64,000 nucleotides of DNA from Clostridiales bacterium. GTDB lineage: Bacteria; Bacillota; Clostridia; Peptostreptococcales; Acidaminobacteraceae. Every line of letters begins with the position of its first letter. Within the stretch, counting starts at the first letter, position 1. The notes below the pieces were generated by a model. The model was not told the origin of the DNA and searched no databases. It saw only the letters and a list, made by a program, of their open reading frames with translations. Positions 27,321-53,100 of this stretch are shown here, piece after piece. The stretch covers positions 124,001-188,000 of the forward strand of contig JAEIOD010000008.1 of assembly GCA_016342415.1 (NCBI GenBank), written 5' to 3'. The position numbers were made by a program, and so were the translations under genes.

Positions 27321-28511
27321 TTACTGTTTTGCATCATAAACAGAGTTGCTTTTACCTAGTGGACTAATAATACGAAGTTCCTTAACAACTCTGGTAATTG
27401 CCTCTACCATTTTTTCTATGTCTTCTATTGAATTATAGCGCCCTAGAGTAAACCTTATTGAACCATGTGCTCTCTCATGGTCCCCACCAATGCCCCTAAT
27501 GACATGACTTGCCTCCAAAGATCGACTAAAACATGCCGAGCCAGTACTGACTGCAAATCCGTTCATATCTAGATGTAAAGTCAGCGATTCCCCCTCCACA
27601 TAATGAAATGTGATATTTACGTTTTGGGGTATTCTATTTTGCGGATGTCCATTAAGCGTTACATCAGGGATCTCCTTAAATATTTTATCTATCAATAAAC
27701 GACTCATTTTCTTAAGTTGTTTGTTTTCCTCCGGCGTTACTAACTCAATTGCCTTCGCAAATCCAACAGCACCTGGAATGTTTTCTAGCCCACCACGATA
27801 ATTAAATTCCTGAAAACCACCATCATTAATCTTTGTAATAGAAGTACCTTTTCTAATGTATAAACCCCCTATTCCTTTTGGACCGTGAATCGTATGTGCA
27901 GATATTGTAATCAAATCAACTGAAATCTCTTTTACATCAATAGGAACTCTTGTCATTGTATGTGTTGCATCTGTATGAAACAACACACCTCTGGCTTTGC
28001 ATATTTCTCCAATTTTTTTTATATCCTGAAGGGTTCCAATTTCTTGGTTTCCATGTTGGATTGATACTAAAATAGTATCTTCCCTGATTAAATTCTCCAA
28101 TTCATCAGTATTGATTAGCCCGACTTCATCTACAGGAAGATACGACACTTCAAAGCCTTGCTTTTCAAGTGATTTCGCACTTCTTAGCACTGGAAAGTCT
28201 TCAATCTCTGAAATGATGATGTGTTTACCAAGCTTACTCCCTAGCGCTAAGGCAACTCCTTTTATTGCGAGATTACTTGATTCCGTACTACCTGATGTAA
28301 ATATCAATTCATCACTATTCGCACCCAGAAAATCAGCAATAGATGACCTTGCTTTTTCAAGTGCTTCTTTTGCTTCTATACCAAGTGAATATCCAAATTC
28401 AGACGTTGCTACAGAGTAGTTCTCGAAAAAAAATGGTATCATTGCTTCCAACACTCTTTCATCTAGTCTGGTTGCAGCAGCATTGTCCATATATATTGTT
28501 TTGTTAAACAT
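27321..28511 (-). CDS. NifS/IscS-like protein lacking the PLP lysine
   Basis: A 396-aa class-V aminotransferase-fold protein with NifS/IscS features: YMDNAAATRLDE at the start, TSGSTESSN near 72-80, TDATHT at 180, catalytic Cys327 in STGSACFSRS and SIRFTLGR at the end. The Schiff-base lysine, expected in S-x-H-K-x-x-GPKG, is Thr207 (SAHTIHGPKG; codon ACG at 27893-27891). The PLP-stacking His (normally EHKAV) is Asp105 and the usual Gln of DATQS is His184. Ordinary desulfurase chemistry is therefore doubtful. Third gene of an operon with TusA, DsrE-like and NifU-like genes, 10-11 bp apart. Confidence 0.9.
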   Translation of the reverse strand: MFNKTIYMDNAAATRLDERVLEAMIPFFFENYSVATSEFGYSLGIEAKEALEKARSSIADFLGANSDELIFTSGSTESSNLAIKGVALALGSKLGKHIIISEIEDFPVLRSAKSLEKQGFEVSYLPVDEVGLINTDELENLIREDTILVSIQHGNQEIGTLQDIKKIGEICKARGVLFHTDATHTMTRVPIDVKEISVDLITISAHTIHGPKGIGGLYIRKGTSITKINDGGFQEFNYRGGLENIPGAVGFAKAIELVTPEENKQLKKMSRLLIDKIFKEIPDVTLNGHPQNRIPQNVNITFHYVEGESLTLHLDMNGFAVSTGSACFSRSLEASHVIRGIGGDHERAHGSIRFTLGRYNSIEDIEKMVEAITRVVKELRIISPLGKSNSVYDAKQ

Positions 28512-29213: not shown

Positions 29214-29228
29214 TGATAATTATTCTCA
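29214..29228 (-). promoter_or_regulatory. Fur-like box upstream of the TusA operon
   Basis: On the minus strand TGAGAAT-A-ATTATCA fits the 7-1-7 Fur consensus TGATAATNATTATCA with one mismatch. It lies 38 bp upstream of the TusA-like start codon. Iron control fits an operon ending in an Fe-S scaffold gene. Confidence 0.72.
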
Positions 29229-29407: not shown

Positions 29408-29842
29408 ATGAAAATAGTAATCGAGGAAGTCCAAAACAATCAAGAAGAAGAGATTATTATACGTTGTCATGAAGTCAACAATGATCTACTTGAATTGGTC
29501 AATAACCTAAAAAAAAGAAACGCCTATTTAATAGGTTATAAAGACAACGAAATACATAGAATCAAAAAAAGTGATGTCTATTATATAGAAGCAGTAGATA
29601 ATAGAGTTTTTATTTACTGTAACAAACAAGTCTATGAATCGAAACTAAAATTATACGAATTCGAATCCAAATTTGGCAGTGATTTTTTCAGAGCCTCTAA
29701 ATCTACAATATTAAATATAACCGTTATTTCGTCTCTTAGACCTTCTGTCAGCGGTCGGTTCAAAGCATCTCTAAAAAACGGTGAAAATGTAGAAATTTCT
29801 AGAAAGTATGTGCCTATACTAAAAAGCAAATTAGGCTTGTAG
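29408..29842 (+). CDS. LytTR-domain transcriptional regulator
   Basis: A 144-aa protein with a short N-terminal segment and a LytTR DNA-binding domain from about residue 45 (IHRIKKSDVYYIEAVDNRVFIY..., FFRASKSTILNI, GENVEISRKYVPILKSKL). It has no receiver domain. It is followed 14 bp later by a DUF3021 membrane protein, a pairing common in Firmicutes, where the membrane partner is thought to inhibit the regulator. Confidence 0.92.
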   Translation: MKIVIEEVQNNQEEEIIIRCHEVNNDLLELVNNLKKRNAYLIGYKDNEIHRIKKSDVYYIEAVDNRVFIYCNKQVYESKLKLYEFESKFGSDFFRASKSTILNITVISSLRPSVSGRFKASLKNGENVEISRKYVPILKSKLGL

Positions 29843-48845: not shown

Positions 48846-50090
48846 TCAAACCGAATCTTCCTTGTGTAAGATTGGAAGCCTAATCTTACAGGTTGTTCCA
48901 TTACCTATTTCACTCCTTAGAATAATATCCCCTTTATGTCTATTGGTTACTATACAGTGAGCAATACTGAGTCCCAGCCCTTTCCCAACAGATACATCCT
49001 TGGTTGTAAAAAAGGGATGAAAAACAAGATTCATATCTTTGTCTTCAATACCTACACCATTGTCGTTAATTTCACAGTACACTGACTCCTGATCACAGTA
49101 TGTTCGGATATTGATTAAGTTAGAAGTTTTATTGCTTTTCTCAATTGCATAAACAGCATTTTTTAAAACCTCAAATAATGCTTGATTTACATCTTTACCA
49201 AAACATTGAATCTGTGGAATATCACCAAAGTTTTTTTCTATGGAAATAGGTTTATCCATCTCACTGTTGATGATCTCAAGAGTGGTTAAAATATTGTTGT
49301 TCAGATCATAAATTTCGATCTGATCCATAGCGTCCACCTTGGTAAACTCTCTTAAAATTCTTATAATGAATTCAATCCTTTCAAGTCCTTCACCCATTTC
49401 ATCAAATATACTTTCTACATCGTCATTCATCATTTTAAGCTCATCAAACATATCGCTTTGTTTATATTCTTCATTTGTATTATTATGATGCAAATCCTTT
49501 CCTTTATCATTTATAAAAAGTTTTGCTACTTCACGGTACTTGTCTACGTATTCCATCAGTATTTTTAAGTTTACCTTTATAAAAGACAGAGGATTATTAA
49601 TTTCATGAGCCATTCCACCAGCCAATTGTGCCAAGCTTGCAAGTTTCTCTTTATGAAACAGTTGAAACTTAGCTTGTTTCAAGTTATTCATAAGCCTTTT
49701 GTTTTCCAAATCGAGTTCGAACTTATACAAAGACATTTCTATGGACACCCTTAAGTCATTTGCATTCACAGGTTTTATCAAGTAGTCGTTTGGATTGGTC
49801 GATATGGCTCGATTTAGTACAGTTTTATCCGAATGCGCGGTCAAAAATATTATCGGAACCTCATAACTCTCTTTTATAAGCTTAGCGGTTTCTATACCGT
49901 CCAAACTCTCTTCTCCAAGTGAGATGTCCATTAAAACAAGGTCTAGACGGCTATTTTTAAACACATTGATTGCATCATCACAATTCGTTACAACAAACGG
50001 TTTATCATACCCTAGATTCATCACCATTTTTTCAAGTATTTTTGAATTTATTTTATCATCTTCTACTATAAGTATCCTAATACTATTCAT
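48846..50090 (-). CDS. Receiver-histidine kinase protein
   Basis: A 414-aa soluble protein with inverted hybrid order. Residues 1-125 are a receiver (IRILIVEDDKINS, phospho-acceptor Asp in LVLMDISLGEE, Lys in DYLIKPVN). A helical linker and HisKA-like segment follow with the His box GGMAHEINNPLSFIK near 165. The HATPase domain has NDNGVGIEDKD and GKGLGLSIAH near 355-385. It lies 29 bp downstream of a large hybrid kinase gene and probably acts after it in a phosphorelay. Confidence 0.9.
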   Translation of the reverse strand: MNSIRILIVEDDKINSKILEKMVMNLGYDKPFVVTNCDDAINVFKNSRLDLVLMDISLGEESLDGIETAKLIKESYEVPIIFLTAHSDKTVLNRAISTNPNDYLIKPVNANDLRVSIEMSLYKFELDLENKRLMNNLKQAKFQLFHKEKLASLAQLAGGMAHEINNPLSFIKVNLKILMEYVDKYREVAKLFINDKGKDLHHNNTNEEYKQSDMFDELKMMNDDVESIFDEMGEGLERIEFIIRILREFTKVDAMDQIEIYDLNNNILTTLEIINSEMDKPISIEKNFGDIPQIQCFGKDVNQALFEVLKNAVYAIEKSNKTSNLINIRTYCDQESVYCEINDNGVGIEDKDMNLVFHPFFTTKDVSVGKGLGLSIAHCIVTNRHKGDIILRSEIGNGTTCKIRLPILHKEDSV

Positions 50091-50119
50091 GCGACCGTCT
50101 CCTTAATATATGTTATAGG

Positions 50120-53100
50120 TTACTGCTCATCTAAAGATGCTTTTATGTTTTTAAGCTCTTCTACAAAAAGTTCAACGTTCTTTTTAATCTCAGAAAACAT
50201 TTCATATAACTCTTTTGTGTCACTGTTTGAAGCTTTTAAATCCAGTTCACTTGACATATCTTTGAGCTTATTGGCCCTAAAGTTTGCGAAAACACCCTTT
50301 AGATTGTGCATATTATGTTTCAATTTAATAACATCATTTTCTCTTATATTCTTTTCAATAAGATCAAATCTAGTCAAATAATCTTCAAAAAAACAATCAA
50401 CCATTTCAATTACAAATTGATTCTCAAAAATTCCAAAAGTACTCCAAAACTCGTCTAAATCAATCATACCCTTTAATGAGCTATTCAAGATGGGTTTTAT
50501 ATCTGACTCTTCTTTTGAAATTTTATGTTTAAATATACTTTCTAACGTCGATATGAGTTTTTCTTCATTTAATGGTTTTATTATATAATCATCTATCCCT
50601 ACATTCATAAACTCATTGACTTCATTCTTCAATGCTGATGCCGTTAAAGCTATAATCGGAATCCTTTTTTCTAAATCTTTCTCTAGTCTTCTGATTTTTT
50701 TTGTTGCATTTGCACCATCCATAATGGGCATCTGCATATCCATTAATATGCAATCATAATATTCGGCTTCGTACTTTTCAACTGCTTCAGCACCATTGCT
50801 GACAACTGTATAGGCGTTTACATAAATTTTTAAAAGCTCTGTAATGTATATCTGATTGATATAGTTATCCTCGGCTATCAACACTTTTACATCTAGTTTG
50901 GTTTCAGCGAACCTCCTTGAGATGTTATTATGTTCATTACGTATCATCTTAATTTCATTTTCATCGGCAGGTGTGAATGGAATGACAACACGGAAGTCAG
51001 AACCTACACCGACTACACTTTTTACATCTATGCTTCCTCCCATCAGATCGACTAGATTCTTGGTAATATTAAGACCAAGTCCTGTACCTCCAAACTTTCT
51101 AGTCGTACTGATATCGGATTGTGTGAAACTCTCAAATATTCTCTCAATATTTTGATCAGAAATGCCTATACCAGTGTCTTTAACAGTAATATCTATAAAT
51201 ACACTTTTTGAACCTCCACCAATCATATTCACCTTAAGTATTATGTGCCCCTTTTCAGTGAATTTTAACGCATTGCTCAAAAGATTTCTCAATACTTGTT
51301 TTGTCCTGGCAGAATCTCCATTTAAATATTCTGGGATATTTTCATCTAACTCATAAATCATCTCTACTTTTTTCTCAATAGCTCTATAGCTAAAAGTCTG
51401 AAAAACACCATTGACCATTTCAGGAAATTTAAATGTTGAGTTTTCAAGTTCAATTTTACCAGCCTCTATTTTTGAAATATCAAGAATGTTGTTGATTATT
51501 TCAAGTAATGCTTCAGATGATTCCTTCAAGATTAATAGATACTCTGCCTGTTTCTCATTTAATGTCATCTTGGATATTAAATTGGTCATACCAATGATTC
51601 CGTTCATTGGCGTTCTTATTTCATGGCTCATATTTGCTAGGAACCTTGTTTTTTCTTGATTTGCTTCTTCAGCGTGTTGTTTGGCTTCAATGAGCTCGGC
51701 TTCCACCTTTTTTAATGTTGAGATATCAAAAGCCGTTCCTACAATTCCTATAACATGACCATCTGAATCACGAAGCGGAACTTTTGTTGTATATGTGAAT
51801 ATACAATTTCCGTCTACACCCTGTACGACTTCATCTTCATTAATGACAGGCTTATCTGTTTCTATAACACTTCTATCGATTTTTGTATATGAACTTGCAA
51901 GCTCTTTAGGAAAAATATCATAATCCGTTTTCCCAATCAAATCTTCATGTTCAATATCAAGCATATCCAACAGCTTCTGGTTTCCATAAAGGTATCTTGA
52001 TTCAAGATCTTTTATAAATACAAAAGCTGGTATGGCAGCTAAAAGTGCTGTCTTTTCATCATTACTCTGCTGCAGAAGCATTTCCGATTCTTTTCTATTG
52101 GTAATATCATCAATAATAAGAGCAAACTGATTCATCTGAGGACTGTAAATCAATACAGATAACCATTTATCCAAAGCATGTAAATATCTTTCAACTTTTT
52201 TTGTACTTCCTAAAAAGGCTACTTCCTTAAAAATATCCATCCAGTAGTCTACATCTTCACTTAACATTCGAAGAATTGTAGTCACCTTTTGACCAACTAC
52301 ATCTTCCCTTCTTATTCCAGCTATTGTTTGAAAAACATCATTGGTCTCAAGAACTTGGAAATCATCTATTCCATCCGTATAACTGCTTATTACCTTACAA
52401 TATACGAAGCCACTCGTCATTGACATAAAGAGTGAAGAATACTTGATAACACTTTCTTTTAATCTCTCTTCCATCATTTTTCGCAAACTAAAATTCTGAG
52501 CAACACAAATAAAACCTTCACATCTACCTTCGGTAAGCAAGATGGAACAGGAAAGCAATACATGAAGTGGATTTCCATCCTTTGAAAGATATATTTCATT
52601 TTTACCTTCATAACTGTTTTTTATAAATTCTTCTTCCCACAAGTCTTTTGAGATTTTTCTTCCAAAAATGATATCAACTGATTTATCAATTAGTTCTTCT
52701 TCTTCATAACCAAGCAGGTTTTGTGTGGAAGGATTAATCTTTTGAATGATAAGGTCCTTTGACAATACAATTAAAGAATCATTCATTGACATAACGACAC
52801 TTTCAATGTAATCCTTGGATACAAGCGTATTGGAAAGAGCTATTGTCATTTTATCAAATTCTCTAGAAAGCTGTCCTATCTCATCCTTCGAATCACTTCC
52901 TACTATATGGTTTAAGTTGCCCGAACCTACTATTCTCGCACTTTTTTGCAACTCATACAGCGGTCTTATAATGGCTCTTCTTGTTAATAAAACAATCACA
53001 ACTAAAATAACAGTACATAAACTAGAAATTAAAAACAGGAGTCTTATTGATTTAGAATAGGAAATCGAAATCTTTTTCTCTTCTATGTAAAGTTGTTCCA

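Follow-up and report, generated by a model that had tools for sequence, protein, structure and literature searches.

The window, that is, the whole 64,000-nucleotide stretch of DNA analysed, carries a gene for a NifS/IscS-type protein whose PLP lysine and nearby cofactor residues have been replaced and whose sulfur-carrying cysteine is kept. We propose, with a probability of roughly 0.6, that this protein would act as a cysteine-independent sulfur relay from the neighbouring TusA and DsrE2 proteins to an IscU-DUF59 scaffold. Lysine-less NifS proteins as such are already known; the one described here belongs to a separate clade (Thr-type), and among the genes that we sampled the state of the lysine column tracks the presence of TusA/DsrE neighbours.

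An intact NifS-like gene lacks the PLP lysine and keeps the sulfur cysteine

The gene occupies positions 27321 to 28511 (minus strand) and reads from an ATG start, with no internal stop, into a product of 396 aa, in agreement with the original prediction of an intact gene. The residues on which that prediction turned, namely three replacements in the cofactor site and a retained cysteine, were confirmed at the codon level. The column of the PLP lysine holds Thr207 (ACG, 27891-27893), that of the PLP-stacking His holds Asp105 (GAC, 28197-28199), that of the Gln in DAxQS holds His184 (CAT, 27960-27962), and the persulfide-carrying cysteine is present as Cys327 in the motif TGSACFS (TGT, 27531-27533), all on the minus strand. 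An additional change was found at Gln156 (CAA), which turns the NNE motif into NQE. PDB alignments placed Thr207 opposite a lysine in the 9wep desulfurase and in the D199K mutant of A. fulgidus IscS (4r5f), and opposite an aspartate in the unmutated A. fulgidus protein (4eb5).

Comparison at the level of sequence and predicted model revealed the aminotransferase class V fold; pLDDT in the model fell below 50 at the Cys loop and at residues 231-242. The protein scored below the curated NCBIfam cut-offs both for NifS (TIGR03402, 442.5 versus 530.75) and for IscS (TIGR02006, 384.3 versus 643.2). The PLP lysine forms the internal aldimine, and the columns of His105, Gln184, Asn156 and Thr242 contact PLP in canonical IscS. 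With no lysine there is no internal aldimine, and ordinary cysteine desulfuration is therefore not expected.

The gene is part of a TusA-DsrE2-NifS-scaffold operon

The NifS-like gene (28511-27321) lies third in a minus-strand operon of four genes, separated from one another by 13, 10 and 11 bp in the order of transcription. The first encodes a TusA-family sulfur carrier of 73 aa (29176-28955; PF01206, 80 bits) with Cys13 in the sequence CPVPL, and this CPxP cysteine was kept in 76/77 relatives, the remaining one having a gap at the position. The second encodes a DsrE2-like protein of 139 aa (28941-28522) that matched PF13686 (DrsE_2) with 121 bits against a cut-off of 25, remained under the cut-off of NCBIfam NF047629 (70.7 versus 210) and carries Cys98, which was found in 78/78 relatives. 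The fourth encodes a protein of 212 aa (27309-26671) in which an IscU/NifU_N scaffold domain (PF01592, 135 bits) is fused to FeS_assembly_P (DUF59; PF01883, 38 bits). Its Cys36, Asp38, Cys63 and Cys107 were each conserved in 80/80 relatives, and the IscU-type cluster cysteines are thus present.

The TusA-DsrE-NifU arrangement that had been read from the window was therefore correct, and it recurred elsewhere. TusA, DsrE2 and scaffold genes were found on the same strand near the Thr-type gene in 77/80 related loci, a count that was the same within 6 kb and within 4 kb, and the three other loci (L052, L062 and L082) start less than 250 bases from the upstream end of their contig. The scaffold gene adjoined the Thr-type gene in all 80 loci. 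Gene order differed from that of the other operons at one locus (L034).

The Thr-type family is conserved in bacteria and archaea

We scored 8000 candidates in a protein search and considered the best 120 rows, query included. Within these, the lysine column held Thr in 114, Ile in 5, Asn in 1 and Lys in none; Asp105 and Cys327 were present in 120/120 and His184 in 119/120. A scan of genomes, with one genome per species, yielded 221 stretches, 190 of which encode a relative. In the best 80 of these 190 loci, a set that is enriched for the Thr-type family by design because one of the two peptide patterns used in the scan contains the family's NQ, the lysine column held Thr in 79, Ser in one (L080) and Lys in none. 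Asp105, His184, His209, Lys227, Asp230, Arg239 and Cys327 were each present in all 80; among the residues tabulated for Lys-type genes, column 227 holds no Lys. These counts bear out the expectation, raised with the original prediction, that homologues in the same operon might have a fixed non-lysine residue at this column and still keep the cysteine. Some residues of the PLP site survive in the family, such as Asp181 (80/80), Thr76 (69/80) and Ser204 (64/80); Thr242 was kept in 1/80. The C-terminal SPL motif occurred in 21/21 Thr-type rows of the set used for the tree, and also in most Lys-type rows.

The dN/dS ratio ranged from 0.038 to 0.131 in those 12 of 13 pairs that gave a finite value; the Thr-type gene is under purifying selection. 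Judged from record titles, its bacterial hosts include Bacillota, Syntrophales and other delta-type bacteria, and Chloroflexota. Among archaea, it was found in Methanosarcina and its kin, Methanofastidiosa, Theionarchaea, Altiarchaeales and Thermoplasmata. A bacterial oddity is ruled out, since archaea carry the gene with the same operon.

The state of the lysine column tracks TusA/DsrE neighbours

We used A. fulgidus IscS, which has Asp in place of the PLP lysine, to search 246 genomes from the phylum to which Methanosarcina spelaei belongs. The search gave 30 loci, and Asp occupied the lysine column in 30/30. Flanks of about 5 kb, some of them shortened by contig ends, were taken for 20 of these 30 loci and for the genes of the two comparison sets below, and a gene was counted as a neighbour when it lay on the same strand within 4 kb. 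TusA was found beside 18/20 genes, DsrE beside 10/20 (11/20 with a smaller database) and at least one of the two beside 19/20; the DsrE matches near Asp-type genes are weak, at 17-39 bits. A. fulgidus itself had DsrE only beside IscS and no TusA in the flanks searched, and at L185 both genes were present at a distance of 4.6-4.9 kb. As Lys-type controls we took 20 genes from relatives (18 Clostridia-like, one from Chloroflexota and one archaeal), for 11 of which the residue was already known at the time of choosing; neither TusA nor DsrE was found beside any of the 20.

A further archaeal set comprised 40 matches with 47-54% identity that were chosen before the residue was read. It contained six Asp genes and one Glu gene, with TusA and DsrE both present in 7/7, and 33 Lys genes with neither of them nearby in 33/33 (Fisher p = 5.4e-8 within this 40-gene sample, relatedness being ignored). 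When all sets were pooled, TusA or DsrE adjoined 26/27 Asp/Glu-type genes versus 0/53 of the Lys-type genes sampled. These results indicate that the lysine state tracks TusA/DsrE neighbours. Partial exceptions are three Lys-type NifS genes, outside the 53 controls, that have a Thr-type operon some 1.5-2 kb away; the gene at L046 shares the operon's strand, and those at L038 and L042 are on the opposite one.

The archaeal gene with Glu in place of Asp at the lysine column is L210. At this locus and at L209, L215, L221 and L222, Asn replaces Asp181, the residue at the PLP nitrogen, which is a further step in the decay of the PLP site.

A careful tree, from which the changed columns were excluded, recovered the Thr-type clade with support of 100/100 and the Asp-type clade with 100/99 (bootstrap/SH-aLRT). 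The Thr-type is a clade separate from the Asp-type, and a larger part of its PLP site has been rebuilt. A tree joining the two was equally good (p-AU 0.496 for the careful tree and 0.842 for a quick tree), and the lysine may have been lost in one event or in two. If both lysine-less clades go back to a common origin, the neighbour rule may rest on a single event.

Thr-type genes coexist with lysine-bearing NifS genes

The genome that contains the window, a member of the same family as Acidaminobacter hydrogenoformans, also has a lysine-bearing NifS accompanied by a NifU of its own (L002, L016). It further has two more NifS-like genes of the Lys-type (L003, L004) and, next to each other, a SufS-like and a SufU-like gene (L001, L018), which were named from their position and a weak similarity. 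The Thr-type gene is patchily distributed, being found in 3/41 genomes searched, its own included, and in neither of two genomes of the same genus. A second match of at least 358 bits was present in 19/22 carrier genomes, although one of these 19 (G059) is fragmentary and the lysine column was inspected in only some of them; the remaining three, which may be incomplete genomes, gave no canonical-type match. Replacement of canonical NifS by the Thr-type protein is unlikely for most hosts in view of these second matches, and a separate role for the Thr-type protein is likely because a Lys-type NifS coexists with it in its own genome and a second match accompanies it in 19/22 carriers.

We also ran the comparison in reverse and searched 245 genomes from the class for DsrE2. 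Some DsrE2 match was obtained in 63/245, and only two genomes, the window's own included, reached 254-266 bits. Both high-scoring genes, a small number, adjoin a Thr-type NifS; the other matches scored at most 112 bits and many lay within longer frames. The window's own genome has another DsrE-type domain within an 826-aa open frame (contig C10, about 49821-50282), as do many genomes of the class.

Relation to known systems

The original prediction had pointed to an undescribed system. This does not hold in full, since IscS proteins without the lysine have been published in A. fulgidus and M. acetivorans. A. fulgidus IscS (PDB 4eb5, 4eb7 and 4hvk; Asp199) was the best PDB match and resembles the Thr-type protein in its missing lysine, its kept cysteine and its adjoining IscU, as do its relatives in having TusA and/or DsrE nearby (19/20 loci of the first set). 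It has been reported (PMC7585200, PMC9769115) to have no desulfurase activity and to provide a cysteine ligand to a [2Fe-2S] cluster on IscU. The two types differ at several columns: the A. fulgidus type has the acidic Asp at the lysine column and keeps His105, whereas the Thr-type has Thr and Asp at these positions, and it has Ala or Val at column 184 and Asn at 206, where the Thr-type has His, together with Thr or Ser at 242.

M. acetivorans IscS1 is noted in PMC7585200 to lack the PLP lysine. According to the same paper, IscS1 and IscU1 (MA0808-MA0807) have masses of 42.2 and 24.2 kDa, IscS1 carries STGSACFS at 318-325, the genes clustered with it are "of unknown function", and the recombinant protein went into inclusion bodies. 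Our Methanosarcina loci L087 and L092 encode proteins of 384 aa and 42.3 kDa with the motif at 318, and from motif position and mass IscS1 is very likely a member of the Thr-type family.

Canonical NifS/IscS working with IscU shares with the Thr-type protein the fold, the Cys loop motif, the C-terminal SPL and the IscU partner. It differs in having Lys, His105, Asn156, Gln184 and Thr242 in 53/53 genes, and TusA/DsrE beside none of the 53 sampled. In Metallosphaera cuprina, DsrE3A, DsrE2B and TusA are likewise co-encoded DsrE- and TusA-family proteins that pass sulfur species; these carriers are flanked by Hdr-like genes, and not by NifS and a scaffold (PMC4175335). The minimal iron-sulfur system MIS (MisS-MisU) is described in PMC12442378 as an IscS homologue paired with an IscU homologue. 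Such a pair is present at the window locus, which may or may not count as MIS, depending on the lysine state that the term covers. Neither a link between lysine loss and TusA/DsrE nor the Thr-type as a cross-domain system of four genes was found in the literature searched, whose coverage left out central papers, and we do not claim that the link is absent from print.

A proposed sulfur relay fed by TusA and DsrE2

Under the proposed relay, DsrE2/TusA would load sulfur onto Cys327, where PLP chemistry would otherwise do so, and Cys327 would then hand the sulfur to the scaffold cysteines. The flow would run in the reverse direction to that from E. coli IscS to TusA, and the sulfur would probably be derived from sulfide or sulfane. 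Cys327 may in addition serve as a ligand of the forming cluster, by analogy with A. fulgidus IscS. Onward transfer of the cluster is probably aided by the DUF59 domain. Most likely, the protein would serve as a cluster-assembly platform as well as a relay, fed by TusA/DsrE2 and not by cysteine. Delivery from DsrE2/TusA is the simplest reading because lysine-less genes have a TusA/DsrE supply beside them and the sampled Lys-type genes do not. The geometry is plausible because a single E. coli IscS dimer is able to accommodate TusA alongside IscU (PMC11302665). In favour of the relay are also the retention of Cys327 despite the lost lysine, the conserved operon, the conserved cysteines of its four products and the low dN/dS. 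Against it weigh the PLP depicted in A. fulgidus IscS, the low model confidence at the Cys loop and at 231-242, the scarce and weak DsrE matches of the first Asp-type set, the possible single origin of the lysine-less clades and the three Lys-type genes close to Thr-type operons. The original suggestion that the protein accepts persulfide and cooperates with TusA, DsrE and the scaffold gains support; Thr is nearly fixed (79/80) in homologues from the same operon.

Four other explanations were weighed against the relay. The NifS-like protein might be a structural partner only, which docks the IscU-like scaffold and offers Cys327 as a cluster ligand, sulfur coming directly from sulfide and TusA/DsrE2 doing something else. 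The lack of desulfurase activity and the cysteine ligand reported for A. fulgidus IscS (PMC7585200, PMC9769115) are consistent with this, as is the conserved SPL of Thr-type and most Lys-type proteins; we nevertheless find it unlikely, since it leaves without a cause the association with TusA/DsrE (77/80 and 26/27) versus 0/53 for Lys-type genes. Lysine loss need not mean PLP loss, because a figure legend in PMC9769115 depicts PLP in the solved complex of A. fulgidus IscS. The protein could be a PLP enzyme of altered chemistry that holds PLP or PMP with no ordinary aldimine, or binds it via a different lysine (the family-invariant Lys227, for instance), and acts on cysteine or on another sulfur or selenium compound. 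The kept fold and the remnants Asp181, Ser204 and Thr76 point the same way, yet the His105, Gln184, Asn156 and Thr242 columns have changed as well, and this explanation appears distinctly improbable.

Regulation of canonical NifS, for example through mixed dimers or competition for the scaffold, would fit the coexistence of a Lys-type NifS in the window's own genome and probably in 19/22 carriers. It is very unlikely given that the Thr-type gene has its own scaffold gene in 80/80 loci and TusA/DsrE2 in 77/80, and that three of the 22 carriers, possibly incomplete, gave no canonical-type match. A sequencing error or a decaying pseudogene, against which the original prediction had already argued, is ruled out by the recurrence of the same residues in 80 loci of other genomes and by the dN/dS values. 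The relay itself might be extended to a protein whose PLP pocket has been emptied and rebuilt (Asp105, Asp181, His184, His206, His209, Lys227 and Asp230), possibly holding iron or sulfane sulfur, so that with Cys327 charged by DsrE2/TusA one protein would give sulfur and perhaps iron to the scaffold, and clusters would be built independently of cysteine across bacteria and archaea; we offer this as a tentative and rather unlikely elaboration.

How sulfur enters iron-sulfur clusters without cysteine in anaerobes living with sulfide, methanogens above all, is an open question; free cysteine is not the cluster sulfur donor in methanogens according to PMC5372739. TusA/DsrE can be named as the likely replacement donor because they lie beside lysine-less NifS genes and not beside the sampled Lys-type ones, and the question becomes testable in Methanosarcina and Acetobacterium. 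Proteins labelled "cysteine desulfurase" in operons of this kind probably do not desulfurate cysteine.

Upstream sequence and further genes around the operon

A promoter scan of the operon gave no signal above shuffles. A candidate Fur-box-like site, without assigned strand, lies at 29214-29228, 38 bp before the TusA start, and agrees at 13/14 positions (one mismatch) with the Fur-box motif TGATAATNATTATCA. Four Fur-type sites with at most two mismatches were counted, near the chance level of 2.3, and in the 75 relatives scanned only one reached 13/14 and most were near the shuffle level. We do not regard Fur control as characteristic of the family, since the sites are near chance level and not conserved in relatives.

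Across about 230 bp from the operon, a divergent plus-strand gene (29408-29842) faces it and encodes what appears by eye to be a LytTR-type DNA-binding regulator. In six members of a cluster of nine Methanosarcina-type loci (L056, L057, L061, L066, L068 and L087), a small protein that by eye resembles HIT-family hydrolases is encoded upstream on the same strand.
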